Part shown: positions 40,004-53,382 of the stretch, piece after piece
Numbering within the stretch: the stretch's first letter is position 1
Layout of the letters: the number at the start of each line of letters is the position of its first letter
Source of the DNA: Rahnella aceris
Lineage (GTDB): Bacteria; Pseudomonadota; Gammaproteobacteria; Enterobacterales; Enterobacteriaceae
Direction of reading: 5' to 3'
DNA: 64,000 nt
NCBI RefSeq assembly: GCF_011684115.1
Contig: NZ_JAADJV010000001.1
Span: forward strand, 1,302,001 to 1,366,000
Notes under the pieces: generated by a model
What the model saw: the letters and a program-made list of their open reading frames with translations, nothing else
Database searches by the model: none
What the model was told of the DNA's origin: nothing
Program-made: the position numbers and the translations under genes

Positions 40004-40774
40004 TCAGGCCAGCGCAGCGCGGGGATGGCCGCTGCGGATAGTGTGCAGGACCTGGCGTTGCAGATCAGTGAATTCAGGGCTGGCGGTCAGTTCCTCACGG
40101 CGCGGACGCGGTAACGGCACGTCGTAAGTCGCCGCAATCGTGCCGGGACCCATCACCACAATGCGGTCAGAAAGGTATACCGCTTCTTCAATATCGTGGG
40201 TGACGAACATGACGGTCAGCCGGTGTTGCTCCCAGATGCCGGTCAGTAATTCCTGCATCTGATGGCGGGTCATGGCATCCAGCGCGCCAAAGGGTTCATC
40301 CATCAGCAGGATTTTAGGGCGGTAAGACAGCGCACGGGCGATGGCGACACGCTGTTTCATGCCACCGGAAAGCTCCGCGGGCCAGGCATCAGCAAACTGC
40401 GTCAGTTGCACCAGTTCGAGATGCTGACTGGCTTTTTCACGGCATTCCGCGCGGCTGAATCCGGCGGCTTTCAGCGCAAACTCAATGTTCTGACGCGCTG
40501 TCAGCCAGGGCAACAGGGTGTAAGACTGAAATACCACGCCACGGTCAATGCCCGCGCCGCGAATGGTTTTGCCATCCACCTGAACGTCGCCGCTGTCGTA
40601 ATCCTCAAGCCCGGCAGCAATCGACAATAAGGTGCTTTTGCCACAGCCGGATGTGCCAACCACCGAAACAAATTCATTGTCCGCCAGTGTCAGGCTGATG
40701 TCGTGCAGCACTTCGCGCGTTTGTTTGCCAACCTGAAAACTTTTGTGCAGATGGGAAATGGTTAACACCGACAT
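40004..40774 (-). CDS. ABC transporter ATP-binding protein (TauB/SsuB family)
   Basis: ATPase of 256 aa. Walker A is GTSGCGKST, Q-loop FQSYTLLPWL, signature LSGGMKQRV, Walker B ILLMDEPFGALD, switch VTHDIEEAV. It overlaps the permease by one base and is paralogous to the hut-linked ATPase at 28454-29239. It energises the importer encoded at 40774-42587. Confidence 0.93.
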   Translation of the reverse strand: MSVLTISHLHKSFQVGKQTREVLHDISLTLADNEFVSVVGTSGCGKSTLLSIAAGLEDYDSGDVQVDGKTIRGAGIDRGVVFQSYTLLPWLTARQNIEFALKAAGFSRAECREKASQHLELVQLTQFADAWPAELSGGMKQRVAIARALSYRPKILLMDEPFGALDAMTRHQMQELLTGIWEQHRLTVMFVTHDIEEAVYLSDRIVVMGPGTIAATYDVPLPRPRREELTASPEFTDLQRQVLHTIRSGHPRAALA

Positions 40775-41583
40775 CAGGCGCGCCTCTTGTTGTAGCGGAA
40801 CAGCACGCGCTCAAGTGCACGCATGATCTGATCGCTGATTAAACCCAGAATACCCAGCAGCAGGATGTAGCCGATGATGGTGTCAGTCTGGAAGAAACGT
40901 TGCGACACCACGATGCGGTAACCGAGCCCGGACGTGGATGCCACCAGTTCGGCCAGCACCAGCCACGTCCACGCCCAGCCGAGACTGATGCGCAGTGCGT
41001 CCCAGATACCCGGCAGTGCACCGGGTAAAACGATGCGGAACAAGATTTTGCGATCCGGCATGCCTAACGTGCGGCCTAAACCGACAAAATCGCCGGGCAC
41101 CCGTTTCACGGCGTCGATCACCATCAGAACCTGCTGGAAGAATGTGCCGATCCAGATAATCAGGAATTTCTGCACATCGTCGGTGCCGGTCCACAGAATG
41201 GTCAGCGGCACGAACGCCACCACCGGCATGTAACGGATAAAGTCCACCAGCGGTTCGGTCAGCGCTTTGAAGAAACCGTAACAGCCTGCCAGCACGCCAA
41301 TCACAATCGACATCACTGAGGAAATCGCGAAGGCGATACTGATGCGGTACAGGCTGCTTTTAATGTCGCTCCATAGCGTGCCGTCCTGCGCCAGACTGAC
41401 CATTTTCAGCCAGACATCGGTCAGTTTGGGCAGGAAAATCGGCGGGATCGCGCCGCTGCGGGTTGCCAGCCCCCAGGCAAGAAACAGAATCACGAACAGC
41501 GTGACCGCAATGCCGACGAACACTTTGCGCGACGGCAGGCGGCCAATCACCATCAGATTGAGCGGTTTACGACGCGAACTCAT
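40774..41583 (-). CDS. ABC transporter permease (TauC/SsuC family)
   Basis: Inner-membrane permease of 269 aa with six hydrophobic helices and the EAA loop GLGRTLGMPDRKILFRIVLPGALPG (read in parts). The first 30 residues are basic. It overlaps both neighbours (1 and 4 bases), so the three transporter subunits are translationally coupled. Confidence 0.92.
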   Translation of the reverse strand: MSSRRKPLNLMVIGRLPSRKVFVGIAVTLFVILFLAWGLATRSGAIPPIFLPKLTDVWLKMVSLAQDGTLWSDIKSSLYRISIAFAISSVMSIVIGVLAGCYGFFKALTEPLVDFIRYMPVVAFVPLTILWTGTDDVQKFLIIWIGTFFQQVLMVIDAVKRVPGDFVGLGRTLGMPDRKILFRIVLPGALPGIWDALRISLGWAWTWLVLAELVASTSGLGYRIVVSQRFFQTDTIIGYILLLGILGLISDQIMRALERVLFRYNKRRA

Positions 41584-42587
41584 GGCAGGCTGTTCACGAA
41601 GCTGGCGTCAATCACCCCGGCGGCGGTTACCGGTTTAGGAATAAGCCCGGCGGCGGTGGCGGCTTTGAGCACGTGGGCGAAGGTCTGGTCGGAGAAGGAA
41701 TGGCTGAGCACCTGTTTGTTTTCCGCCAGCGAGTAATATTTCACGCCATCAAACGCGGTTTCCAGATCTGCAGGCGTTGCGCCAACCGCTTTGGCAATGA
41801 TGGCGCGATCCGCTGTGGTATTGGCCTGGTAGTGGGTCAGGGCGGCGTCCCAGCTTTTAATCAGCGCAGCGATTTGCCCCGGTTTTTCTTTCAGTACGGA
41901 ATCACGGACCACCAGCACATCGCCAATCAGGCCGGGATCGGAAGAGCCGCTGTAGAGCATTTTCAGCGACGGGTCCTGTTTTTTCGCGGCAGAAATATAG
42001 GGTTCATAAGTGACGGCAGCAGTGACGCGTTTGGCAATCAGCGCGCTGCCCGCAGAATCGGCTGGCATCGGCACCGGTGTGATATCACTCCATTTCAGAC
42101 CTGCAGAATTAACGGCGCTGTGCAACAGAATGTCGCTGGTGGTGCCTTCTTCAAAGGCCACCTGCTTGCCTTTCAAATCTTTCAGCGTGGTGATGTTTTT
42201 GCCCACCAGCAGGGCGTCAGCGGTTTCACTTTGATCCAGTAACAGCACCACTTTGATCGGCAAACCGGCAGAGACCATCGCCATCGCGGTATGTGTGGCA
42301 ATGTTTGCGCCGTCAATCTGGCCGCTGGCTAAGGCGGCGTTGATGTCTTTATCTTCGGCGAAGTTAATGATATCGACCTTCTCCAGCCCCTGTTGTTTAA
42401 AAATGCCCTGACTTTGTGCGACGTGCCACTGGCCGTAACCCAGCCAGGGTTCAATGCCCATTTTGAACGTGCCCGCTTCGGGTGCAGCGGCGGAGGTGCT
42501 CAGGCTGAATGTGCTGAGTGCGCCAAGACAACAGGCCAGAGCCAGTTTGTTTTTGAAGAAACCCGTAAAGGTCTGAGAAGGTGACAT
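41580..42587 (-). CDS. ABC transporter substrate-binding protein (TauA/SsuA family)
   Basis: Periplasmic binding protein of 335 aa with a signal peptide at residues 1-34 (SLSTSAAA). The core starts FKMGIEPWLGYGQWHVAQSQG, and the VTYEPYIS segment is shared with the hut-linked homologue at 26575, although the two differ widely elsewhere. GAGGAA stands before the ATG. It opens the operon with a HutC-type operator 61 bases upstream. The ligand is not known; family members bind sulfonates, nitrate and N-heterocycles. Confidence 0.87.
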   Translation of the reverse strand: MSPSQTFTGFFKNKLALACCLGALSTFSLSTSAAAPEAGTFKMGIEPWLGYGQWHVAQSQGIFKQQGLEKVDIINFAEDKDINAALASGQIDGANIATHTAMAMVSAGLPIKVVLLLDQSETADALLVGKNITTLKDLKGKQVAFEEGTTSDILLHSAVNSAGLKWSDITPVPMPADSAGSALIAKRVTAAVTYEPYISAAKKQDPSLKMLYSGSSDPGLIGDVLVVRDSVLKEKPGQIAALIKSWDAALTHYQANTTADRAIIAKAVGATPADLETAFDGVKYYSLAENKQVLSHSFSDQTFAHVLKAATAAGLIPKPVTAAGVIDASFVNSLP

Positions 42588-42861: not shown

Positions 42862-43842
42862 TCAGCTGGCTCTGGCTTCAGGAACGGGGATTAATGCCTG
42901 TTTAAGGGCGTTGTAAAATAACGTCATCACCGAATTAAACGGTGCGCCTTTTTTCAGTACAAGGCTGAACGGTGTGGCAATTTCAATATTCTCCGGCATC
43001 AGTGCGCGGAGTTTATTTCCGCCCATAAATGCACTGGCGTAATGTTCAGGCAGAAATCCGAGATAATTTCCCGTCATCAGCAGCATGGTGACGGCTTCGA
43101 CTTGCACCGCAATGGCGTGCGTGGAAGTGACATCCGAAAAGATATTTTTTTTACTGTGATTGGCGTAAAAATGATTCACCATGTGCGACGATTTGATCTG
43201 TGATTCTTTTATTTCAGCGGCAGGGACGCTGAACAGCGGATGTTTGTCGCCGCAATAAAGATAAGCCATTTCATGATAGAGGAAATAGTAATCAAACTCC
43301 GGTTTTTCCTGATACACCGGCATGATGCCACAGGTAAAACGTCCGTCGATAATCCCGCGTTCAATCTCGTCCAGCTGAGTGGCGTGCAGGCGAATACTGA
43401 CCTTCGGTGCCTGACGGTAAATCTCACCCAACGCACTGACTACGGGCGATTGCGGGTCAGTGATGGTGTTGTCGATGATGCCAATATTCAGCTCGCCAAA
43501 CAGTTCATGACGGGCGTGATTGAGTTTGTCGCGAAACTGATTGATGGATGAAAATAAATCAAGGCAGGCCTGATAAGCCACTTTACCGTGTTCGGTTAAA
43601 TAAAATCCTTCACGTCCTCGGGTGCAAAGTTTCATGCCAAAACGGATTTCGAGATCAGAAATTTGTTTACTGATCGCCGCCAGGCCAATATTCAGTTCAT
43701 TGCATGCGGCGGTAAAGCCACCGGCTTCCACCACGGTTTTAAAGACGCGCAAAAGTTTTAAATCGGCGACGCCAAGGCTGTGCTGGTTAATATCACTTTT
43801 TGCGGGTGATGTGTTTCCTGATTTGGAAAGTGGACTTTCCAT
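42862..43842 (-). CDS. LysR-family regulator of the adjacent ArgH-like operon
   Basis: Transcription factor of 326 aa. After a polar 25-residue extension comes the helix-turn-helix (LKLLRVFKTVVEAGGFTAACNEL read in parts; IGLAAISKQISDLEIRFGMKL). The effector domain spans about 110-315. It diverges from the ArgH-like gene across a 189-base gap, the usual arrangement for a LysR protein and its target. Its inducer is probably the substrate of that operon. AT-rich, lower-GC codons near its start differ slightly from neighbours. Confidence 0.88.
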   Translation of the reverse strand: MESPLSKSGNTSPAKSDINQHSLGVADLKLLRVFKTVVEAGGFTAACNELNIGLAAISKQISDLEIRFGMKLCTRGREGFYLTEHGKVAYQACLDLFSSINQFRDKLNHARHELFGELNIGIIDNTITDPQSPVVSALGEIYRQAPKVSIRLHATQLDEIERGIIDGRFTCGIMPVYQEKPEFDYYFLYHEMAYLYCGDKHPLFSVPAAEIKESQIKSSHMVNHFYANHSKKNIFSDVTSTHAIAVQVEAVTMLLMTGNYLGFLPEHYASAFMGGNKLRALMPENIEIATPFSLVLKKGAPFNSVMTLFYNALKQALIPVPEARAS

Positions 43843-44031: not shown

Positions 44032-45459
44032 ATGTCGCAACAGCCAGAATTACTGTGGGGAGCACGCTTCAAACACGGGCCAGCCGCCGCATTAAGCGCA
44101 TTATCGCGCAGCCCGGAATATTATTTTTCCCTTGCCGAATATGATCTGGAAGGGTGCCGCGCCCATGCGTATGAATTAAGCCGCGCCGGTTTACTCGACG
44201 AAAATGAAACCGTCCTGATGGTGGAGGCCATTAAACAACTGGCGAAGGATTTCCGTGCCGGCGTTATTCAGCCGGTTCAGGGGGATGAAGACGTTCACAC
44301 GTTTATCGAACGCAGCCTGACCGAGCGGCTGGGCGAACTCGGCGGCAAGCTGCGCGCAGGGCGTTCACGTAATGATCAGACCGCTAACGATTTACGCCTC
44401 TACCTGCGCGACCACGCCCGCAAGATTGTGGCGGCATTGCTCGAACTTCAGACTGCACTGGTGAAGCAGGCGGAACAGCATATTCATACGCTGGCACCGG
44501 GCTTTACCCATCTTCAGCAGGCGCAGCCGATTGTGTTCGGGCATCAGCTGATGGCGCATGCGCAGTCCTTTTGCCGTGACATTGAACGCTTTCAGGACTG
44601 GGATAAGCGTTGCGCACTGTCGCCTCTGGGCGCGGCGGCGATGGCGGGTTCTGCGATTGCCCTGCACCCGGAACTCTCCGCCAAAGATCTCGGTTATGAC
44701 GGTGCCTGTGAGAACTCGATTGATGCCGTAGCCAGCCGGGATCACGTCGCAGAATTCCTGTTTGCGGGCAGTATGCTGAGCGTCAATCTTTCCCGCATCA
44801 GTGAAGAAGTGTGTCTGTGGGCATCGCGCCAGTTCCGCTGGGTTGAACTGGACGACGGCTACGCCACCGGCAGTTCCATCATGCCGCAAAAGAAAAACCC
44901 GGATATCGCTGAACTGACGCGCGGCAAAAGCGGACGGCTGATTGGCAACGTCACCGCCATGCTGACCACCATGAAAGGCCTGCCGCTTTCCTATAACCGT
45001 GACCTTATCGAAGACAAACGTAATGCGCTGGATACCGTCGAACAGTTGCTGTTAGTGCTGCCTGCGATGGCGGGCATGATCGATACCATGACCGTCAATG
45101 TTGAGCGTTTACGCGAACAGGCACCGGAAGGCTTTACGCTGGCGACTGAAGTGGCCGACTGGCTGTCGCGCCGTGGCGTGCCGTTCAAGGAAGCCCACGA
45201 AATCACCGGCAAACTGGTGCAGGTGTGTGAGCAACATAATCTGGCGCTGCACGAAGTCAGCGACGCGCAGTTACTGGCAGTAGATGCCCGCCTGAGCGCC
45301 GACGTGCGTGAATGCCTGACGCTGGAAGCGGCGATCAACGCCCGCAGCGGCAAAGGCGGCACGGCGCCGGTGCGGGTGGCGGAGCAAATTGCGCGGCTGA
45401 AAATTCGTCTGCAGGCGCAGGCGCACTGGGCTACAGGCTACGCTGGCTTGTCTTTATAA
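44032..45459 (+). CDS. Argininosuccinate-lyase-like C-N lyase
   Basis: Member of the aspartase/fumarase superfamily, closest in look to ArgH: 475 aa, beginning ELLWGARF and bearing GRSRNDQ (110-116), PGFTHLQQAQP with the base-type histidine (His160), and the signature GSSIMPQKKNPD (280-291). It differs from biosynthetic ArgH in GKLRAGRS, where HTGRS is usual, and in NRDLIEDKR for NKDMQEDKE. The ATG at 44032 follows AAGGA; the frame opens upstream to 43924. It heads an operon with an amino-acid transporter, which suggests catabolism. EDDS lyase and iminodisuccinate lyase are relatives with similar context. Confidence 0.85.
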   Translation: MSQQPELLWGARFKHGPAAALSALSRSPEYYFSLAEYDLEGCRAHAYELSRAGLLDENETVLMVEAIKQLAKDFRAGVIQPVQGDEDVHTFIERSLTERLGELGGKLRAGRSRNDQTANDLRLYLRDHARKIVAALLELQTALVKQAEQHIHTLAPGFTHLQQAQPIVFGHQLMAHAQSFCRDIERFQDWDKRCALSPLGAAAMAGSAIALHPELSAKDLGYDGACENSIDAVASRDHVAEFLFAGSMLSVNLSRISEEVCLWASRQFRWVELDDGYATGSSIMPQKKNPDIAELTRGKSGRLIGNVTAMLTTMKGLPLSYNRDLIEDKRNALDTVEQLLLVLPAMAGMIDTMTVNVERLREQAPEGFTLATEVADWLSRRGVPFKEAHEITGKLVQVCEQHNLALHEVSDAQLLAVDARLSADVRECLTLEAAINARSGKGGTAPVRVAEQIARLKIRLQAQAHWATGYAGLSL

Positions 45460-45477
45460 CCGGGCGGGAGAAGGCTT

Positions 45478-46350
45478 ATGACCCCTTATCAGAAAATGTC
45501 GGAAAGCGCGAAAAGCGCAGAGATTGATCTCAGCGAATATCACTACGTGCCGCAACGTTATTACGGCCGGATTTTTGCCTCGGTGGTGATCCTGCTGCTG
45601 CTGGCGTTGCTGGTGAATGCCTTTGCGCACGGCAAAATCGAATGGCAGTACGTGGCGCAGTTCCTGACCGCCAAAGCCATTCTGTTCGGGCTGGGCAATA
45701 CCATTGTGATGTCGGTGCTGGCGATGGCGCTGGGGATCGTGTTCGGCGTGATTATCGCCGTGATGCGCATGTCGCAAAACCCGGTCCTGCGCAGCGTGGC
45801 GATGGGGTATACGTGGATTTTTCGCGGCACTCCGCTGATTTTACAACTGTTGCTGTGGTTTAACCTGGCGCTGATTTTCCCGGTCATCGCCATTCCCGGC
45901 GTATTCAGCATTCAGACCGTCGATATCATGACGCCGTTCACCGCCGCGCTGCTCGGCCTGAGCATTAATCAGGGCGCGTACACCTCGGAAGTGGTGCGTG
46001 CCGGGCTGATCTCGGTCGATCTCGGGCAGTACGAAGCCGCGAAATCCATCGGCATGACCCGTCTGCATGCGCTGCGGCGGATTATTTTGCCCCAGGCAAT
46101 GCGGGTGATTATCCCGCCCATCGGTAACGAATTCATCAGCATGGTGAAAACCACCAGCCTTGCCAGCATGATCCAGTACTCCGAAGTGCTCTATAACGCG
46201 CAGACCATTTACTTCGCCAATGCGCGGGTAATGGAACTGCTGTTTGTGGCGGGCATCTGGTATCTGGTGGTGGTGACCGTGCTGTCGCTCGGGCAGAACC
46301 GTCTGGAACGTTATTTTGGCCGTGGCACCCGCCGCCGCACCAGCCACTGA
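45478..46350 (+). CDS. Polar amino-acid ABC transporter permease
   Basis: Inner-membrane permease of 290 aa in the HisM/GlnP (PAAT) family. The N-terminal 30 residues are cytoplasmic, then helices, the [13 protein letters not shown] motif near residue 120, and the EAA loop [22 protein letters not shown] near residue 190. A single permease gene implies a homodimer. GGGAGA precedes the ATG. It lies 18 bases after the ArgH-like gene. Confidence 0.93.
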
Positions 46351-46363
46351 CAGGAGCCTGACC

Positions 46364-47128
46364 ATGAAAAGTATTATCAAAGCCGTCAACGTCAATAAGT
46401 ACTTTGATCAGTTTCAGGCGCTGAAAAACGTCAATCTTGAGGTTAAACACGGCGAAGTGATGTGCATCATCGGGCCTTCCGGCTCAGGGAAAAGCACATT
46501 TCTGCGCTGCATCAATCAACTTGAGCGCATCGACAGCGGGGGCGTCTGGGTCGATGACGAACTGGTCGGTTACCGCATGGACGGCAAAAAGCTGTATCCG
46601 CTTAATGACCGGCAGATTGCCCGTCAGCGGCTGAAAACCGGCATGGTATTCCAGCGTTTCAATCTGTTCCCGGATAAAACCGCGCTGGAAAACATCATCG
46701 AAGGGCCGTGTCAGGTGCTGCTGCGTCCGGTGAAAGAGGCGACGCAGGAAGCGATGGCGCTGCTTGAACGCGTCGGGCTGGCGCATAAGCGTGATGCTTA
46801 TCCGCTGGAACTTTCCGGCGGCCAGCAACAGCGCGTGGCGATTGCCAGGGCGCTGGCGATGAAACCCAAAGTGATGTTGTTTGATGAACCCACCTCGGCG
46901 CTCGACCCGGAGATGGTGGGCGAAGTGCTGGCGGTGATGCGCGGCCTGGCGGCAGAAGGCATGACCATGATTGTCGTCACGCATGAATTAGGTTTCGCGC
47001 GGGAAGTGGCAAACCGCGTGGTCTTCATGGACGAGGGCGGAATTATAGAAAGTGGTAATCCGGAAGATATTTTGCTCAACCCGCAAAATCCACGGACGCA
47101 GAACTTTATTTCTGCCGTCCTGATCTGA
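46364..47128 (+). CDS. Polar amino-acid ABC transporter ATP-binding protein
   Basis: ATPase of 254 aa in the GlnQ/HisP family. Walker A is GPSGSGKST, signature LSGGQQQRV, Walker [17 protein letters not shown], switch VTHELGFA. An insert around residue 75 ([14 protein letters not shown]) is typical of some family members. The ATG at 46364 follows AGGAG; an earlier in-frame start at 46316 lies within the permease. It works with the permease just upstream. Confidence 0.94.
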
Positions 47129-47166
47129 CCCTTTTGACGTTAACTTTTGACTATGGGAATGCCTTC

Positions 47167-47988
47167 ATGAAAAAAACATTGTTGTCCCTCATTACCGCTG
47201 GCGTGCTGCTGAACGGCGCTGTTTCTGTCGCCAGCGCGGCGGAGCTGAAGCAAAAAGACGAAATTAAAGTGGCGATGATGCCGAACTATCCGCCGCTGGA
47301 ATTCAAAGATCCGGCCACCGGTAATCTGACCGGCATGGATTACGATCTGGGCATGGAACTCGGCAAACGCCTGAACCGCAAAATCAGCTGGCAGGAAATC
47401 GGCTTTGAACAGATGGTTAACGCCGTCGCCACCCATCGTGTCGATATGATTTTATCCGGTATGACCGACACCAAACCGCGTCAGGACATCGCCACGTTCG
47501 TCGATTACTACAACAGCGGACCGCAGTTCTATACCACCGTCGCGCACAAAGAAATCAATACCATGCTGGATTTGTGCGGCAAGAAAGTCGGCACCAGCCG
47601 CCGTACCACATTCCCGGCTGAAATTGCGGCCTGGAGTGAAGCTAACTGTGTTCCGGCAGGTAAGCCCGCCATCGTGGTGATTGGCGCGGAAGGCACGGCG
47701 GATGCGCGCACTCAGTTGCGTCAGGGGCGTATTGAAGGCGTGGTGCAGGGCAGCGAAACCCTGCCGTACATCATGAATCTGGAGAAAGACACCTATAAAC
47801 CGCTGGGCAAAGCTTTTGCCTATCAGGTGACCGGTATGGGGATCAGCAAGGACGATCAGCCGCTGATTGACGCGGTAAAAGGCGCACTGACCGACATGAT
47901 CGCCGACGGTACCTATCTGAAAATCCTCACCAAATGGGGTTTGCAGGATGGTGCAATCCAGGAAGTGACCATCAATAAAGGCAAATAA
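47167..47988 (+). CDS. Amino-acid ABC transporter substrate-binding protein
   Basis: Periplasmic binding protein of 273 aa, family 3. The signal peptide spans 1-25 (SVASAAE); the mature start is KVAMMPNYPPLEFKD, and the GMDYDLGMEL and SGMTDTKPRQDI segments contact the alpha-amino-acid group in family members. The ATG at 47167 follows GGGAA; the frame opens at 47134. With its partners it imports the compound that the downstream enzymes handle, probably an amino acid with an N- or side-chain substituent. Confidence 0.92.
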   Translation: MKKTLLSLITAGVLLNGAVSVASAAELKQKDEIKVAMMPNYPPLEFKDPATGNLTGMDYDLGMELGKRLNRKISWQEIGFEQMVNAVATHRVDMILSGMTDTKPRQDIATFVDYYNSGPQFYTTVAHKEINTMLDLCGKKVGTSRRTTFPAEIAAWSEANCVPAGKPAIVVIGAEGTADARTQLRQGRIEGVVQGSETLPYIMNLEKDTYKPLGKAFAYQVTGMGISKDDQPLIDAVKGALTDMIADGTYLKILTKWGLQDGAIQEVTINKGK

Positions 47989-48009
47989 CCTCAGGTGACG
48001 GACTGACTC

Positions 48010-48864
48010 ATGACGATTTCACAACAGGCGGCCAGTTTATGGCCGCAAAACAAACGCGGCTGCATGGCGCTGGCGTTTGACCTCGACGGCCCGACCGGTG
48101 ATGCGATGCTTAACGGCACCCTCTGGCAGAAAGCGGATTACTTTACCTTCGGCGCTTACGGACCCTACCGCGCGCTGGAGCGCATTCTTGATTTGCTTGA
48201 TGATCACCAGCTTCCGGCGACATTTTTCATCCCCGCGTGGGTCGTGGAGAACTGGCCGAAACAGTGTCAGGCGATTGTCGGACGCGGCCATGAAGTGGCG
48301 TATCACGGTTACCGTCATGAGTCTTTTTACGCCATCAGCGCGGAGAAACAGTTGTGGGTGATGCAGAAATCCCGCGAGATTTTCTGGCAGTTTCTGGGCA
48401 TCCGTGCTGAGGGTTTTCGCACGCCTTCCGGTGACTGGCATGCAGAAACCCCCGCCATGCTACTGGAGGCGGGCGTGACCTATTCCAGCAGTATGCGCGG
48501 CGACGACCGGCCTTATCTCATCAACGTTGCGGGGCATGATCGCCCGCTGGTGGAAATCCCGGGCCGCTGGGAAATGGACGATTACGCTTCTATTGCCTAT
48601 ACCCGCGAGCCGAATTTCCCCTCAGGCTTAGACCGTACCGCCAGCTATGAACTGACGCTGGATAACTGGTGTCGTGAATTCGATGGCGCAATGGATGAAG
48701 GGCTGAGCCTGACCACGTTGTTCCATCCAAAAATCAGCGGAAAACCCGGACGCATTATGCTACTTGACGCATTTTTTGCTCACCTGAAAGCGCGGGATGA
48801 CGTGTGGTTTGCACGTTGCCGGGACGTCGCGCACTGGTGGATGCAGGAGCATGCCAATGACTGA
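48010..48864 (+). CDS. NodB-fold deacetylase/amidohydrolase with intact metal site
   Basis: Polysaccharide-deacetylase-family enzyme of 284 aa with no signal peptide, so cytoplasmic and probably acting on a small molecule. Motif 1 reads AFDLDG (Asp24, Asp26), motif 2 HGYRHE (His99, His103), and motif 3 GFRTPSGDW. Asp26, His99 and His103 can hold the metal. The overall look recalls PuuE-type allantoinases and related N-acyl or cyclic-amide hydrolases. It overlaps the next gene, a paralogue without the metal histidines, by 8 bases. Confidence 0.82.
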   Translation: MTISQQAASLWPQNKRGCMALAFDLDGPTGDAMLNGTLWQKADYFTFGAYGPYRALERILDLLDDHQLPATFFIPAWVVENWPKQCQAIVGRGHEVAYHGYRHESFYAISAEKQLWVMQKSREIFWQFLGIRAEGFRTPSGDWHAETPAMLLEAGVTYSSSMRGDDRPYLINVAGHDRPLVEIPGRWEMDDYASIAYTREPNFPSGLDRTASYELTLDNWCREFDGAMDEGLSLTTLFHPKISGKPGRIMLLDAFFAHLKARDDVWFARCRDVAHWWMQEHAND

Positions 48865-49759
48865 ACAAAACTGGCCCGCAGGTTACCGCTCTGCGGTGGT
48901 GATTACTGTTGATTTCAATGATATTCACGGCATTCTCAGTCAGGTGCCTGCGGTGGCCGGACGCGAAAAAACGCTGTCCGTCTGGCGTTATGGCACGCTG
49001 CGCGGCATCGACAGGCTGCTGGGTTTGCTGGAGGAGAAAAACCTGCGCAGCTCGTGGTGTGTGCCGGGCATGGTGGCGGATGAAAACCCGCAGAAGATCC
49101 GTGATATAGACCGTGCCGGTCACGAACTGGCGAGCTGTGGCTATGAATTCGTCCATTTTGACGGCCTGTCGTTGCATCAGCAAACTGACAGCCTGCAACG
49201 GGGTAAAGCGGCGCTGAAAGCGCTGACGGGTAAAGTGCCACGCGGCTTTCGTTTGCCCGCCGGTAACTGGGCGCCGGGCTTTGCGGATGTGCTGGCGGAT
49301 GAAGGATTCAGCTGGACATCCGGCTGGCGCGGTGATGATTTACCCTATTTCCAGCCGATGCAGGATGGTCTGGCGTCGCGGCTGGTGGAACTGCCGCTGC
49401 ATTATGAAATGGAAGACGAGCCGTATTTTGCCTTTAACCTCAGCCCGGCGGTGCCTCCGGCGCAGTCGCGGATTGCCTCTTACCGCCATACCCTCGGCAA
49501 TATGAAGATGGATTTCGACGGCTTCCACCGTTTTGGCCTGTGTTACGTGCTGCGCCTGCATCCGGAAGTGATCGGCACGGCAGGGCGCATTGGTATGCTG
49601 GCGGAACTGCTGGATTACATCACTTCGCACCCGGACGTCTGGGTGGCGACGGCCGGCGAAGTCGCGGACTGGTGGTCGCAGAATCAGCCGCAAAACGAGG
49701 CGTCGCATCCGGCGCAAATCTGGATGCAACACACCGCGCCGGGAGTCAGCTATGAGTAA
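48857..49759 (+). CDS. NodB-fold protein lacking the metal histidines
   Basis: Second deacetylase-family protein, 300 aa. Motif 1 is VDFNDIHG (Asp19, Asp22) and motif 3 GFRLPAGNW, but the HxxxH of motif 2 has become CGYEF (Cys94, Phe98). It thus cannot form the usual metal centre. It may be a non-catalytic partner of the protein encoded just upstream, or use metal-free chemistry as reported for PuuE allantoinase. The ATG at 48857 follows AGGAG by 7 bases; the frame opens at 48797. It overlaps both neighbours by 8 bases. Confidence 0.8.
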   Translation: MTEQNWPAGYRSAVVITVDFNDIHGILSQVPAVAGREKTLSVWRYGTLRGIDRLLGLLEEKNLRSSWCVPGMVADENPQKIRDIDRAGHELASCGYEFVHFDGLSLHQQTDSLQRGKAALKALTGKVPRGFRLPAGNWAPGFADVLADEGFSWTSGWRGDDLPYFQPMQDGLASRLVELPLHYEMEDEPYFAFNLSPAVPPAQSRIASYRHTLGNMKMDFDGFHRFGLCYVLRLHPEVIGTAGRIGMLAELLDYITSHPDVWVATAGEVADWWSQNQPQNEASHPAQIWMQHTAPGVSYE

Positions 49760-51107
49760 TGTTTCACAACAGCAGGTTCTGGCCGGATTCGTGGTGAATA
49801 CCCGTTTTGAGGATTTGCCGCCACGGCTTGTTGAACGCGCCAAACGGCATATCCTCGACACGCTCGGCGCGGGGCTGGTGGGATCTGCCAGCGATGTTGC
49901 AAAACAGGTGGCGGCGATGATCCTCGGTGAAGGCGCATTGCCGCTTTCGTCGGTGTGGGGCTGTCGCGAACTGACGTCGCCACGCAACGCCGCGCTGCTT
50001 AACGGCGTGGCGGCGCATGCGCTGGAACTTGATGATACCGGCGGTTGCGATCATTCCGGCGCGGTGGTGATTCCGGCTTTGCTGGCAGTACTGCCGTTAT
50101 GCCCGCAACCGGTCAGCGGAAAAGCGTTTATCACTGCGGTCGTGATCGGTTATGACGTGGCGCGCCGCGTGCTGGAAGCCTGTGGCGGATATTCACCACA
50201 TAACGGCGCAGGCTGGCATTCGACATCCACCTGCGGCGTGTTTGGTGCGGCGGCGGCAGCCGGAAAATTAATGGGGCTGAATGCGGCGCAAATCAGTTCG
50301 GCGTTAGGCATCTCCGGCAGTTTCAGCGGCGGCTTGTGGGCGTTTATCCACGACGGTTCGCAGAGTAAAAAACTGCACGCCGGACGTGCTGCCGAAGGCG
50401 GTGTGCTGGCCGCGCTGAGCGCCAGGCAGGGCATCAGCGGCCCGTCGCAGTTATTCGGGGATAAATGGGGAGGATTCCTTTCCACGCTGGCCCCTGCCAG
50501 TGCAACGCCGGAAGCGCTGACCGCGCAACTGGGGGAAATCTGGAAGCTGGAACGTTGTTCCATCAAGCCTTACGCCTCCTGTCGTGGCACGCATTCAGCC
50601 ATTGACGCCACCGGCATTTTGCTGGAAAGACTGAATGCCGGCGCGGCGGATATCGAAAAAATCGTTGTGCGCTTGTGTCCGTTCCTCAACGGCATGTGCG
50701 GCGACAACGAAATCGCCACGCTGGCCGCCGCGCAGATGAGTATCCGCTACGCTATCGCCGCCCGTGTGGTCTTTGGACACGCAGGGCTGGCGGCGTATGA
50801 CGCTGATAAACGTCAGGATCCGGCCTTGCTGGAGATGATCCGCCGGATTGATTTGCGGGAAGACGACACCCTGAGCGCCGACGGCGAGCCGGATGTCACG
50901 CTCTTCACCCGTTCTGGCCAGTCGCAAACCCTGCGGGTTGATGTCGCGCTAGGTGCGCCGGGTAATCCGGTGTCAGATGAGCAACTTAAACAGAAGTTTA
51001 TCTCGCTGGCGACGCGGGTGATGTCGGAGGAAGGGGCAGAGAGGATATGGGAGCAGGGGATGCGGCTGGAACTGGCGCGAGATATTAATGCGTTCATCGG
51101 GCGGTAA
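49752..51107 (+). CDS. MmgE/PrpD-family protein (epimerase, dehydratase or decarboxylase)
   Basis: Protein of 451 aa in the MmgE/PrpD family, which includes 2-methylcitrate dehydratase, cis-aconitate decarboxylase and iminodisuccinate epimerase. Marks are DTLGAGLVGS near residue 32, HALELDDTGGCDHSG near 88, and KPYASCRGTHSAIDA near 275. Length is close to iminodisuccinate epimerase. The ATG at 49752 follows GGGAG; the frame runs upstream to 49590 inside the previous gene. It is last in the operon. With an ASL-family lyase in the same operon, epimerisation of an N-substituted aspartate-like compound is a fair guess. Confidence 0.83.
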   Translation: MSNVSQQQVLAGFVVNTRFEDLPPRLVERAKRHILDTLGAGLVGSASDVAKQVAAMILGEGALPLSSVWGCRELTSPRNAALLNGVAAHALELDDTGGCDHSGAVVIPALLAVLPLCPQPVSGKAFITAVVIGYDVARRVLEACGGYSPHNGAGWHSTSTCGVFGAAAAAGKLMGLNAAQISSALGISGSFSGGLWAFIHDGSQSKKLHAGRAAEGGVLAALSARQGISGPSQLFGDKWGGFLSTLAPASATPEALTAQLGEIWKLERCSIKPYASCRGTHSAIDATGILLERLNAGAADIEKIVVRLCPFLNGMCGDNEIATLAAAQMSIRYAIAARVVFGHAGLAAYDADKRQDPALLEMIRRIDLREDDTLSADGEPDVTLFTRSGQSQTLRVDVALGAPGNPVSDEQLKQKFISLATRVMSEEGAERIWEQGMRLELARDINAFIGR

Positions 51108-51137: not shown

Positions 51138-51236
51138 AGAGACAGGGCAAATTTTTCACTTGTTCATCCTGCGTGGCTGGTGTCAAATCAGATGATTAGC
51201 CTCCAGCGGGTAAGACCGTTAAATAAAGGAAATCCT

Positions 51237-52283
51237 ATGACTCAGACCCTGCGTACCGGCCTCGTCGGCTACGGCTTCGCCAGTAAAACCTTTCATTCAC
51301 CCCTGATTGATGGCACGCCCGGCCTCGAGCTGGCGGTGGTTTCCAGCAGCGATGCGGGCAAAGTCCATGCGGACTGGCCCAATGTGGAGGTGGTAGATTC
51401 GCCGGAAAAGCTGTTTGCCGATGCGTCCATTGATCTGGTGGTGATCCCGACGCCCAATACCACCCATTTCCCGCTGGCGAAACTGGCGCTGGAAGCGGGT
51501 AAGCACGTTATCGTGGATAAACCCTTTACCGTAACACTTGAGGAAGCCCGCGAGCTTGACGCGCTGGCGCGTGAAAAAGGCAAGGTGCTGTCAGTATTTC
51601 ATAACCGTCGCTGGGATTCAGATTTCCTCACGGTTAAAACGCTGATTGAAGAAGGTGCGCTCGGCGATATCGTCTATTTCGAATCCCATTACGACCGTTA
51701 CAAACCGCAGGTTCAGCAGCGCTGGCGTGAAAGTGATGCGCCGGGCAGCGGCATCTGGTTCGATTTGGGTTCGCATCTTCTGGATCAGGCGCTGCAATTG
51801 TTCGGACTGCCGGAAACGTTGCAGGCGGATCTGGCTGTACTGCGCCCCGGCGGTAAGGCCGTGGACTATTTCAACGCGGTGCTGACCTATCCGCGCCGTC
51901 GCGTGGTGCTGCACAGTACGGTGTATGCGGTTGCCGAAACTGCGCGTTTTATCGTGCAGGGCGAAAAGGGCAGCTACGTGAAATTCGGGCTGGATCCGCA
52001 GGAGGACCGCCTGAAAGCCGGTGAACGTCTGCCACAGCCTGACTGGGGATTCGACAAGCGCGATGGTGTGATTACGCTGAGCCACGACGGCGTACTGGCG
52101 GAAAAATCGCTGCTGACCATTCCGGGCAATTACCCGGCTTATTATGCCGGGGTGCGGGATGCCATTAACGGACAGGGCGACAATCCGGTTCCGGCGGCGG
52201 ATGCTATCCGTGTGATGGAAATGCTCGAACTGGGGATGCAGTCCTCAGAACAACAGGCGACCCTGAAAGTCATCAAGAACTAA
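51237..52283 (+). CDS. ydgJ: Gfo/Idh/MocA-family oxidoreductase, YdgJ-like
   Basis: NAD(P)-dependent sugar or polyol dehydrogenase-like protein of 348 aa. The Rossmann start is RTGLVGYGFASKTFHSPLI, then DKPFTVTLEEARELD with the catalytic-type lysine, SVFHNRRWDSDFLT, and SHLLDQALQLFG. It matches E. coli YdgJ (346 aa) over its length, and ydgJ also lies near add in E. coli. Substrate is not established. The ATG at 51237 follows AAAGGA; the frame opens at 51132. Confidence 0.9.
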   Translation: MTQTLRTGLVGYGFASKTFHSPLIDGTPGLELAVVSSSDAGKVHADWPNVEVVDSPEKLFADASIDLVVIPTPNTTHFPLAKLALEAGKHVIVDKPFTVTLEEARELDALAREKGKVLSVFHNRRWDSDFLTVKTLIEEGALGDIVYFESHYDRYKPQVQQRWRESDAPGSGIWFDLGSHLLDQALQLFGLPETLQADLAVLRPGGKAVDYFNAVLTYPRRRVVLHSTVYAVAETARFIVQGEKGSYVKFGLDPQEDRLKAGERLPQPDWGFDKRDGVITLSHDGVLAEKSLLTIPGNYPAYYAGVRDAINGQGDNPVPAADAIRVMEMLELGMQSSEQQATLKVIKN

Positions 52284-52302
52284 CACGTCGTCTACGCTTC
52301 TT

Positions 52303-52331
52303 AAGTGTCACTTTGGTGGCACTTTTATTTT
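52303..52331 (+). terminator. Terminator after ydgJ
   Basis: AAGTGTCAC (52303-52311) pairs with GTGGCACTT (52316-52324) with one mismatch, followed by TTATTTTT. A classical intrinsic terminator in the 79-base gap before yfeH. Confidence 0.75.
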
Positions 52332-52362
52332 TCATTTGTTATTCACTTTGCAAGGAAGGTTC

Positions 52363-53382
52363 ATGTCCTGGTTACAACGTCTGAAAATCGACAAGTTTTT
52401 GCTGATCCTGGTTTGTGTTGTCGTGGTCGCCTCATTTTTCCCGTGTGAAGGCATTTATAAAACCTTCTTCGGTTACCTGACCACGGCCGCTATCGCGCTG
52501 CTGTTCTTTATGCACGGTGCGAAGCTTTCCCGTGAAGCGATCATGGCGGGTATCAGCCACTGGCGTCTGCACGTTGTGGTGTTCCTCAGCACCTTCGCGT
52601 TGTTCCCGCTGCTCGGTCTGGGGATGAAATGGCTGGTGCCGGTGGGGATCCTGACGCCGACGTTGTACTACGGTTTCCTGTATCTCTGCGCACTACCTGC
52701 GACCGTGCAGTCTGCGATTGCTTATACTTCGGTGGCGGGCGGTAACATTCCGGCGGCCATTTGCAGCGCGTCGGCATCCAGTATTCTTGGCGTGTTCCTC
52801 TCGCCGGTGCTGGTCGGCCTGCTGATGCATACACAGGGCGGCACCACTGACACCCTGCACGCCATCGGTTCTATTGTGCTGCAACTGATGGTGCCGTTTA
52901 TCATCGGGCATCTTTGTCGTCCGCTGATTGGCGGCTGGGTACAGCGTCACAAGAAAATCGTCAACGTCACTGACCGTTCATCGATTCTGCTGGTGGTATA
53001 TGTGGCGTTCAGTGAAGCGGTGGTGCAGGGGATCTGGCATCAGATCAACGGCTGGTCGCTGCTGGCGATCCTCGGCTGTTCTGTTGTTCTGCTCACTATT
53101 GTGCTGATCATCAATACTTACGTGGCGCGTCTGTTTGGCTTTAACACCAAAGATGAAATCACCATTGTGTTCTGCGGGTCGAAGAAGAGTCTGGCGAACG
53201 GTATTCCGATGGCGAACGTGCTGTTCCCGGCTGCCGCCGTAGGGGCGATGGTGCTGCCGCTGATGATTTTCCACCAGATCCAGTTGATGGTGTGCGCGGT
53301 ACTGGCCTCACGCTATGCCAAACGTGTGGCACGTGAAGAAGCCGCGGCACTGCTGAAGAAAGAAGAAGTAAAAACGGTTTAA
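52363..53382 (+). CDS. yfeH: Bile-acid:sodium symporter family transporter, YfeH-like
   Basis: Inner-membrane carrier of 339 aa with about ten helices. It matches E. coli YfeH in segments such as LTTAAIALLFFMHGAKLSREAI, CALPATVQSAIAYTS, and DEITIVFCGSKKSLANGIPMAN. The SBF/BASS fold cotransports sodium with organic anions; the ligand of YfeH is not known. The ATG at 52363 follows AAGGAAGG; the frame opens at 52336. Confidence 0.92.
   Translation: MSWLQRLKIDKFLLILVCVVVVASFFPCEGIYKTFFGYLTTAAIALLFFMHGAKLSREAIMAGISHWRLHVVVFLSTFALFPLLGLGMKWLVPVGILTPTLYYGFLYLCALPATVQSAIAYTSVAGGNIPAAICSASASSILGVFLSPVLVGLLMHTQGGTTDTLHAIGSIVLQLMVPFIIGHLCRPLIGGWVQRHKKIVNVTDRSSILLVVYVAFSEAVVQGIWHQINGWSLLAILGCSVVLLTIVLIINTYVARLFGFNTKDEITIVFCGSKKSLANGIPMANVLFPAAAVGAMVLPLMIFHQIQLMVCAVLASRYAKRVAREEAAALLKKEEVKTV

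Follow-up and report, generated by a model that had tools for sequence, protein, structure and literature searches.

Among the described systems, the catabolism of the opines nopaline and octopine comes close to the operon analyzed here, which occupies positions 44032 to 51107 of a 64,000-nucleotide stretch of Rahnella aceris DNA (the window; contig NZ_JAADJV010000001.1, positions 1,302,001 to 1,366,000). The two share an amino-acid-type ATP-binding cassette (ABC) importer, a solute-binding protein (SBP; NocT in the opine system) without the amino-binding Asp, and LysR control, and arginase and ornithine cyclodeaminase are encoded near some of the clusters related to the operon. However, the operon uses a lyase, whereas opine catabolism uses an opine oxidase, and NodB and PrpD proteins are not known to be part of opine operons. 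The individual proteins also have described relatives. (i) The lyase shares the fold, the family, and all checked catalytic residues with argininosuccinate lyase, ArgH (nearest structure, 6IEM), but it belongs to a separate clade whose members are changed at D33 and Q328 and mostly also at S29, and it is clustered with an importer and hydrolases. (ii) The two NodB-fold proteins, NodB1 and NodB2, have the fold, the best curated model, and the small-substrate branch in common with the allantoinase PuuE, but both are far below the equivalog cutoff, and NodB1 has both metal histidines, whereas PuuE has only the first. (iii) HpPgdA, which is not known from an importer or lyase setting, is closer in sequence to both NodB proteins than PuuE is; it differs from them as a reported peptidoglycan deacetylase. 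(iv) The PrpD-like protein shares both MmgE/PrpD Pfam domains with iminodisuccinate epimerase and cis-aconitate decarboxylase, yet matches either with only about 130 bits. (v) The guanidinobutyrase GbuA and the guanidinopropionase GpuA are the nearest solved relatives of a ureohydrolase found beside a related cluster of Agrobacterium (L162); no such gene is present in the window or in its genome, and the Agrobacterium protein also passes the agmatinase cutoff.

We conclude that the locus is a real, widely shared, and apparently undescribed operon, probably catabolic, that likely serves the import of an N-substituted aspartate and its elimination to fumarate. An earlier note, made from the sequence alone, had described seven tightly packed plus-strand genes divergent from a LysR gene, and coordinates, strands, and families were all borne out:

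42862..43842, minus strand: LysR-type regulator (Pfam HTH_1 and LysR_substrate), divergent from the lyase gene, also in relatives
44032..45459, plus strand: argininosuccinate-lyase-like C-N lyase of 475 amino acids (Lyase_1, ASL_C2; TIGR00838, 538 bits, cutoff of 279.5)
45478..46350, plus strand: permease of an amino-acid-type ABC importer (BPD_transp_1 and polar amino-acid permease models)
46364..47128, plus strand: ABC importer ATPase of the GlnQ/TcyN/EhuA class (family models)
47167..47988, plus strand: periplasmic SBP (SBP_bac_3; R77 kept, D161 replaced by Gly)
48010..48864, plus strand: NodB1, putative PuuE-like NodB-fold hydrolase (Asp-His-His metal site intact)
48857..49759, plus strand: NodB2, PuuE-like NodB-fold protein (metal site lost; predicted fold)
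49752..51107, plus strand: MmgE/PrpD-family protein, presumed epimerase (Pfam MmgE_PrpD_N and C; conserved polar residues)

The successive gaps measure 18, 13, 38, and 21 bp and are followed by two 8-bp overlaps. In a consensus scan, promoter-like sites were fewer and terminator-like sites no more numerous than in shuffled sequence, so that the scan is uninformative on the limits of the transcript.

The operon is conserved well beyond Rahnella. A scan with the NodB2 alignment, using one genome per species, found 159 places, the best 80 of which were used for order counts. Of these best 80 loci, 58 contain the full set of eight genes with unchanged order; another 13 lack only PrpD, 7 meet a contig end, and 2 consist of the NodB pair or fragments only. 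Gene order is thus conserved in other genomes, far beyond chance, which supports the proposal of the earlier note that the genes form one catabolic module. The carriers among the best 80 loci include Rahnella, Rouxiella, Serratia sp. M24T3, Acerihabitans, Erwinia/Pantoea/Winslowiella, and many Pseudomonas strains; NodB2 shares 95% identity with its R. perminowiae counterpart. In an even sample of the phylum (398 genomes, that of the window included), a lyase with at least 59% identity was found in 9 genomes and a related SBP in 16, while a congener (G374) had no lyase at the threshold used. Lyase relatives with an E value of 1e-150 or lower occurred in 23 of 248 genomes of one family; poorer samples yielded 4 of 297 genomes of one order and, for the NodB1 type, 1 of 289 genomes of its class. 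The counts for NodB, PrpD, and SBP use thresholds of length and identity and thus exclude weaker relatives. We also compiled 35 regions of 34 genomes, 34 around lyase matches and one (L203) around a NodB1 match. The lyase and all three importer genes were present in 35 of 35 regions, whereas NodB and PrpD were found in 12, always together. This indicates that LysR, lyase, and importer form the core and that NodB and PrpD are lineage-specific additions, so that of the seven-gene set put forward earlier the order is conserved but the NodB and PrpD genes are accessory.

The lyase shares 39% identity with the ArgH of the same genome and scores well above the TIGR00838 cutoff. The genome encodes four other Lyase_1 proteins, one of which is the ordinary ArgH (L003; 690 bits to TIGR00838), adjoined by a gene that we read as argB. 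Structure matches were 491.3 bits for 6iem, which we take to be the ArgH of Mycobacterium tuberculosis, and 219.7 bits for 6g3d, labeled argininosuccinate lyase in the search listing but presumably the lyase of ethylenediamine disuccinate (EDDS). By these scores the operon lyase is close to ArgH and far from 6g3d, which corrects the emphasis of the earlier note on EDDS lyase. A tree of 88 rows groups the 30 operon lyases in a single clade (support of 100/98), which is joined to the one mycobacterial, biosynthetic ArgH row (100/100), a link that is not secure because the tree program warned that long branches meet there. The other ArgH rows, including the one of the same genome, were placed apart. 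The operon lyase thus lies outside the proteobacterial ArgH rows, and as far as sequence comparison goes, neither of the two refutations named in the earlier note, a place within the biosynthetic ArgH clade or a lack of conserved gene order, was borne out. We then compared residues, in duck numbering, between 85 operon lyases and 35 canonical rows (34 distinct, since argH of the genome was counted twice as L003 and L103; Pseudomonadota and four solved structures); the L096 lyase was left out of the lyase rows. The checked catalytic and fumarate-side residues T161, H162, S283, K289, N291, S114, R115, N116, Y323, K331, D89, and E296 are kept in 85/85 operon lyases. In contrast, S29, D33, and Q328, present in 35/35 canonical rows, are kept in 21, 0, and 0 of the 85, respectively; S29 is lost in 64, D33 is replaced by Y (79) or F (6), and Q328 by S (64), I (10), A (10), or V (1). 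In the window's own lyase, S29 is present, whereas Y31 and I326 occupy the positions of D33 and Q328. In line with work on delta-crystallin, we take S29, D33, and Q328 to be contacts of the arginine half, an assignment that the papers found do not state. The pattern fits an unchanged elimination chemistry with a changed amine, as judged from sequence.

A second ArgH-type lyase accompanies the same importer/NodB1/NodB2/PrpD cluster in some Alphaproteobacteria (L094:11158-12531, L095:11150-12523, and L256:1188-2561). In the plasmid relatives of Ensifer, Rhizobium, and Ochrobactrum (L094 to L096), the importer, NodB1, NodB2, and PrpD are followed by a lyase at 38 to 41% identity. In the tree, the Ensifer/Rhizobium lyases have a separate origin on a long branch within the other ArgH group, so that the cluster seems to have recruited an ArgH-type enzyme at least twice. 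The L094 and L095 lyases keep D33 and Q328, but their S29 is replaced by C and their Y323 by F. Other plasmid relatives are a Paracoccus cluster (L093), with no lyase within the region, and those of Rhizobiaceae (L086, L088, L090, L099, and L162), in which a single NodB follows PrpD. In S. meliloti 1021 (L086:12120-13426), the PrpD match is split over two overlapping frames, and the gene may be broken or misread; in other S. meliloti records it is a single full-length match.

The identity between NodB1 and NodB2 is 30%. Among curated models, both match PuuE best (TIGR03212; 81.0 and 82.2 bits, far under the cutoff of 424.6), and the nearest solved structure is 3rxz, an unstudied mycobacterial protein. 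The next relatives by sequence are, in this order, HpPgdA, 1z7a, 3s6o, and PuuE for NodB1 and 3s6o, 1z7a, HpPgdA, and PuuE for NodB2. The predicted NodB2 model (mean predicted local distance difference test score, pLDDT, of 79.6; weak at residues 23 to 46 and 192 to 205) ranked 3rxz, 3s6o, 1z7a, and PuuE ahead of HpPgdA by fold. One study describes PuuE as a non-metal-dependent alternative allantoinase and suggests that 1z7a and 3s6o are possibly PuuE-like allantoinases (PMC10967932). In another, the PuuE substrate is a small cyclic imide, cavities are reduced and obstructed in PuuE and HpPgdA (3QBU), the latter being soluble, and HpPgdA is reported to deacetylate peptidoglycan in crude preparations but was inactive in vitro on the small compounds tested, including allantoin (PMC3084791). 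The Asp-His-His metal site is intact in 90/90 NodB1 sequences and is kept in 15/15 of the single NodB proteins of the Rhizobiaceae type. Among 92 NodB2 sequences, however, the metal Asp is found in only 2 (Asn in 88), the first His in 4, and the second His in 71, whereas the base Asp is kept in 88. Two NodB-fold hydrolases had been predicted; the fold was confirmed in both and the metal site in NodB1, but the metal-binding residues are lost in NodB2. Since the base Asp is kept while the metal site is lost, NodB2 may either work without metal, as PuuE does, or serve as a partner protein for NodB1. No signal sequence was apparent by eye in either protein.

The PrpD-like protein has both Pfam domains (213 and 109 bits). 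Its nearest solved relatives are iminodisuccinate epimerase (132.0 bits) and cis-aconitate decarboxylase (131.3 bits), and since it is equally distant from the two, no special kinship with the epimerase is apparent and its homology does not favor an aminopolycarboxylate. It is presumed to be an epimerase, with a decarboxylase or dehydratase as alternatives; we chose this role because aspartase-type lyases are stereospecific and hydantoin-like rings racemize readily. In the SBPs of the operon type (133 sequences, including second copies from some clusters), R77 is kept in 133/133, whereas D161 is kept in none and is replaced by Gly in all. Nopaline-binding NocT, whose ligand is an N-substituted amino acid, also lacks this Asp and has Ser instead. 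Judged from these residues, an N-substituted aspartate would fit the binding protein.

Some relatives of the operon are accompanied by ureohydrolases. A gene of the arginase family lies 3' of the cluster and in the same orientation in L098, L099, L162, L173, L174, L195, and L203 and near it in L089 and L200, and L093, L098, and L193 have genes for arginase and ornithine cyclodeaminase in the vicinity. In the 35 regions, tblastn retrieved 6 ureohydrolases (five agmatinase-like and one arginase), compared with 0.37 expected from 92 copies in the 34 genomes. They were present in 6 of the 12 regions with PrpD (5 of 11 leaving out L203) and in none of the 23 without it. The six span five genera and four families, although related genomes are not independent. 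The Agrobacterium protein matched guanidinopropionase with 285 bits, guanidinobutyrase with 259, and agmatinase with 202. The loss of D33 would be in keeping with a leaving amine that is a guanidino compound and has no alpha-amino acid end.

Gene content and order, the separate clade, the residue changes, and the ureohydrolase association are observed; the substrate and every reaction are our inference. In our preferred explanation, which we advance tentatively and at somewhat less than an even chance, the substrate would be a guanidino- or ureido-type, argininosuccinate-like aspartate that undergoes ring opening. The importer would take up aspartate carrying an amidino- or carbamoyl-type N group (guanidino- or ureidosuccinate) together with a cyclic, hydantoin-like form; the PuuE-like NodB hydrolases would open the ring inside the cell, PrpD would, if necessary, invert the succinyl carbon, and elimination of fumarate by the lyase would release a guanidino or ureido compound, which the ureohydrolase added in about half of the PrpD-bearing sampled relatives could split into urea and an amine. 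The order of hydrolase, epimerase, and fumarate-releasing lyase given in the earlier note is supported as a reading of the sequences, and among the substrate classes considered, the ureido/guanidino type is the likelier one, whereas the aminopolycarboxylate is not favored by the homology of lyase or PrpD. As a variant within this explanation, the small group released may be urea or guanidine itself, which would suit the missing ureohydrolase of the window's genome; however, the ureohydrolase examined is nearest to guanidino-acid enzymes.

Several points weigh against this explanation. (i) HpPgdA, and not PuuE, is the closer of the two in sequence to both NodB proteins. (ii) The core occurs without NodB, PrpD, or a ureohydrolase in 23 of the 35 regions, and the recurrent neighbor genes of the sampled regions do not fix the substrate. 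(iii) No gene of the arginase family is present anywhere in the genome of the window, so that a released guanidino acid could not be split that way there and would have to be used or exported otherwise. (iv) The ureohydrolases of L162 and L089 pass the curated agmatinase cutoff (193 and 192.5 versus 174.3 bits), which makes the assignment to guanidino acids, based on a single protein, uncertain. (v) In the 22 other SBPs of the same family in this genome, the Arg is kept in 22 but the Asp in only 13, with another residue in 9 (Gly in 2), and the change is therefore not unique to the operon. (vi) The contacts of R77 with the ligand carboxylate and of D161 with the ammonium group are assumed roles, as are those of the three lyase residues. 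(vii) Neither activity nor growth data on any member turned up in the literature searched.

The substrate could instead be an N-(1,2-dicarboxyethyl) amino acid or an aminopolycarboxylate (succinopine or succinamopine and their lactams, aspergillomarasmine-type compounds, iminodisuccinate, or EDDS), from which NodB would remove an amide or open a lactam before epimerization by PrpD and cleavage by the lyase into fumarate and an amino acid. A binding protein that, like opine-binding NocT, is without the alpha-amino Asp, the loss of the presumed arginine contacts, the membership of iminodisuccinate epimerase in the PrpD family, and the lack of a ureohydrolase in the window's genome would all agree with such a substrate. 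The association with ureohydrolases in relatives argues against it, and because the lyase is far nearer to ArgH (491 bits) than to the presumed EDDS lyase (220 bits) and PrpD is as far from iminodisuccinate epimerase as from cis-aconitate decarboxylase, we no longer place this option in the lead and consider it rather unlikely. Argininosuccinate forms ring species, and in a further alternative argininosuccinate itself is imported with its spontaneous cyclic anhydrides; NodB would open these, PrpD would correct the stereochemistry, and the lyase would yield arginine and fumarate as nitrogen and carbon sources. The TIGR00838 score far above the cutoff, the independent lyase of L094 and L095 that serves the same cluster while keeping D33 and Q328, and the arginase and ornithine cyclodeaminase neighbors of L093, L098, and L193 point in this direction, and no ureohydrolase would be needed in the window's genome. 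This alternative is nevertheless distinctly unlikely, given operon lyases that are noncanonical at D33 and Q328 in 85/85 and at S29 in 64/85 and given that enzymes of the agmatinase/guanidino-acid type, not arginases, make up five of the six ureohydrolases sampled. The S. meliloti wild type is taken to carry argH2. Also counting against this alternative, the arginine biosynthesis genes of S. meliloti, among which argH1 is listed, show group fitness defects in the wild type (PMC5929573).

The NodB proteins might also deacylate imported N-acyl amino acids ahead of the lyase step, in line with the full carbohydrate esterase family 4 metal site of NodB1 and the proximity in sequence to a peptidoglycan deacetylase. 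We regard this as improbable: PuuE is the best curated model, NodB2 lacks the metal site, the carbon-nitrogen hydrolase and amidohydrolase neighbors of L251 (see below) suggest carbamoyl-type chemistry, and HpPgdA itself was inactive in vitro on the small compounds tested (PMC3084791). The annotation of the lyase as argH in public records, together with the biosynthetic mycobacterial ArgH as the nearest tree row, could finally be taken to indicate an ordinary second copy for arginine biosynthesis beside an unrelated transporter. This is highly improbable in view of the separate clade, the changed pocket, the conserved clustering with importer and hydrolases, and the genome's own argH elsewhere.

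Other clusters share parts of the operon. Four loci of one genus with genomes of 6.7 to 8.8 Mb (L251:7258-15387 and L252 to L254) contain the importer type of the operon, here with two binding proteins, and lack lyase and PrpD. A NodB gene lies beside that importer in L251 to L253, and L251 also has a carbon-nitrogen hydrolase and an amidohydrolase. The former, for which no curated model reached its cutoff, is reminiscent of N-carbamoyl-D-amino-acid hydrolases; this type of cluster is perhaps a hydantoin or carbamoyl-amino-acid variant. In L257 (6586-11591), an arginase-family protein and a 300-amino-acid protein without a Pfam match are grouped with the same importer type. A gene of the Asp/Glu/hydantoin racemase family is nearby in L087, L170, and L172 (Pfam was run on the L087 protein), and eight loci, L162 (2581-3054) among them, have a GNAT acetyltransferase that belongs to a single loose cluster of similarity. 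In L016 (12818-13918) and eight other enteric loci (Enterobacterales), an Fe-type alcohol dehydrogenase that resembles glycerol dehydrogenase but scores below the model cutoff is encoded near the cluster, and a YdeE-like gene of the major facilitator superfamily recurs beside the cluster in Pseudomonas. In the window, a YdgJ-like Gfo/Idh/MocA oxidoreductase and an SBF-like transporter are found 3' of the operon (51234-53382); they look unrelated to it because they are confined to three Rahnella loci. None of the YdgJ-like, SBF-like, Fe-type alcohol dehydrogenase, and YdeE-like neighbors fixes the substrate. Beyond the LysR gene, a separate minus-strand ABC importer (40004-42587) has a nitrate/sulfonate-type look, as judged from the open reading frame list.

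We take argH2 and SMb21095-97 of S. meliloti to be the genes of the S. meliloti 1021 cluster (L086). In a tolC mutant of S. meliloti, argH2 was down 20.7-fold in arrays and 4.5-fold by PCR and SMb21095-97 were down 10- to 17-fold; the authors explain the lower transport of nitrogen compounds by reduced NtrC (PMC2912261). These indirect data would suit nitrogen scavenging. Apart from them, the open-license literature yielded no description of the operon or the pathway.

Compound and pathway thus seem undescribed. The lyase, annotated argH in public records, is probably a catabolic enzyme that has been read as one of arginine synthesis. It is possible, though doubtful, that the operon represents a widespread nitrogen-scavenging pathway for cyclic and open guanidino- or ureidosuccinates, a class of compounds not yet recognized as bacterial nutrients. 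The enzymes acting in sequence would be a lyase that derives from ArgH and has had its leaving-group pocket rebuilt, a NodB pair similar to hydantoinases, one with and one without a metal site, and a PrpD-family epimerase. If the preferred explanation is true, argininosuccinate-like compounds and their ring forms would constitute a new substrate class, PuuE-like NodB enzymes and the MmgE/PrpD family would each gain a new role, and plant- and soil-associated bacteria would have a nutrient whose use is directly testable in laboratory strains.

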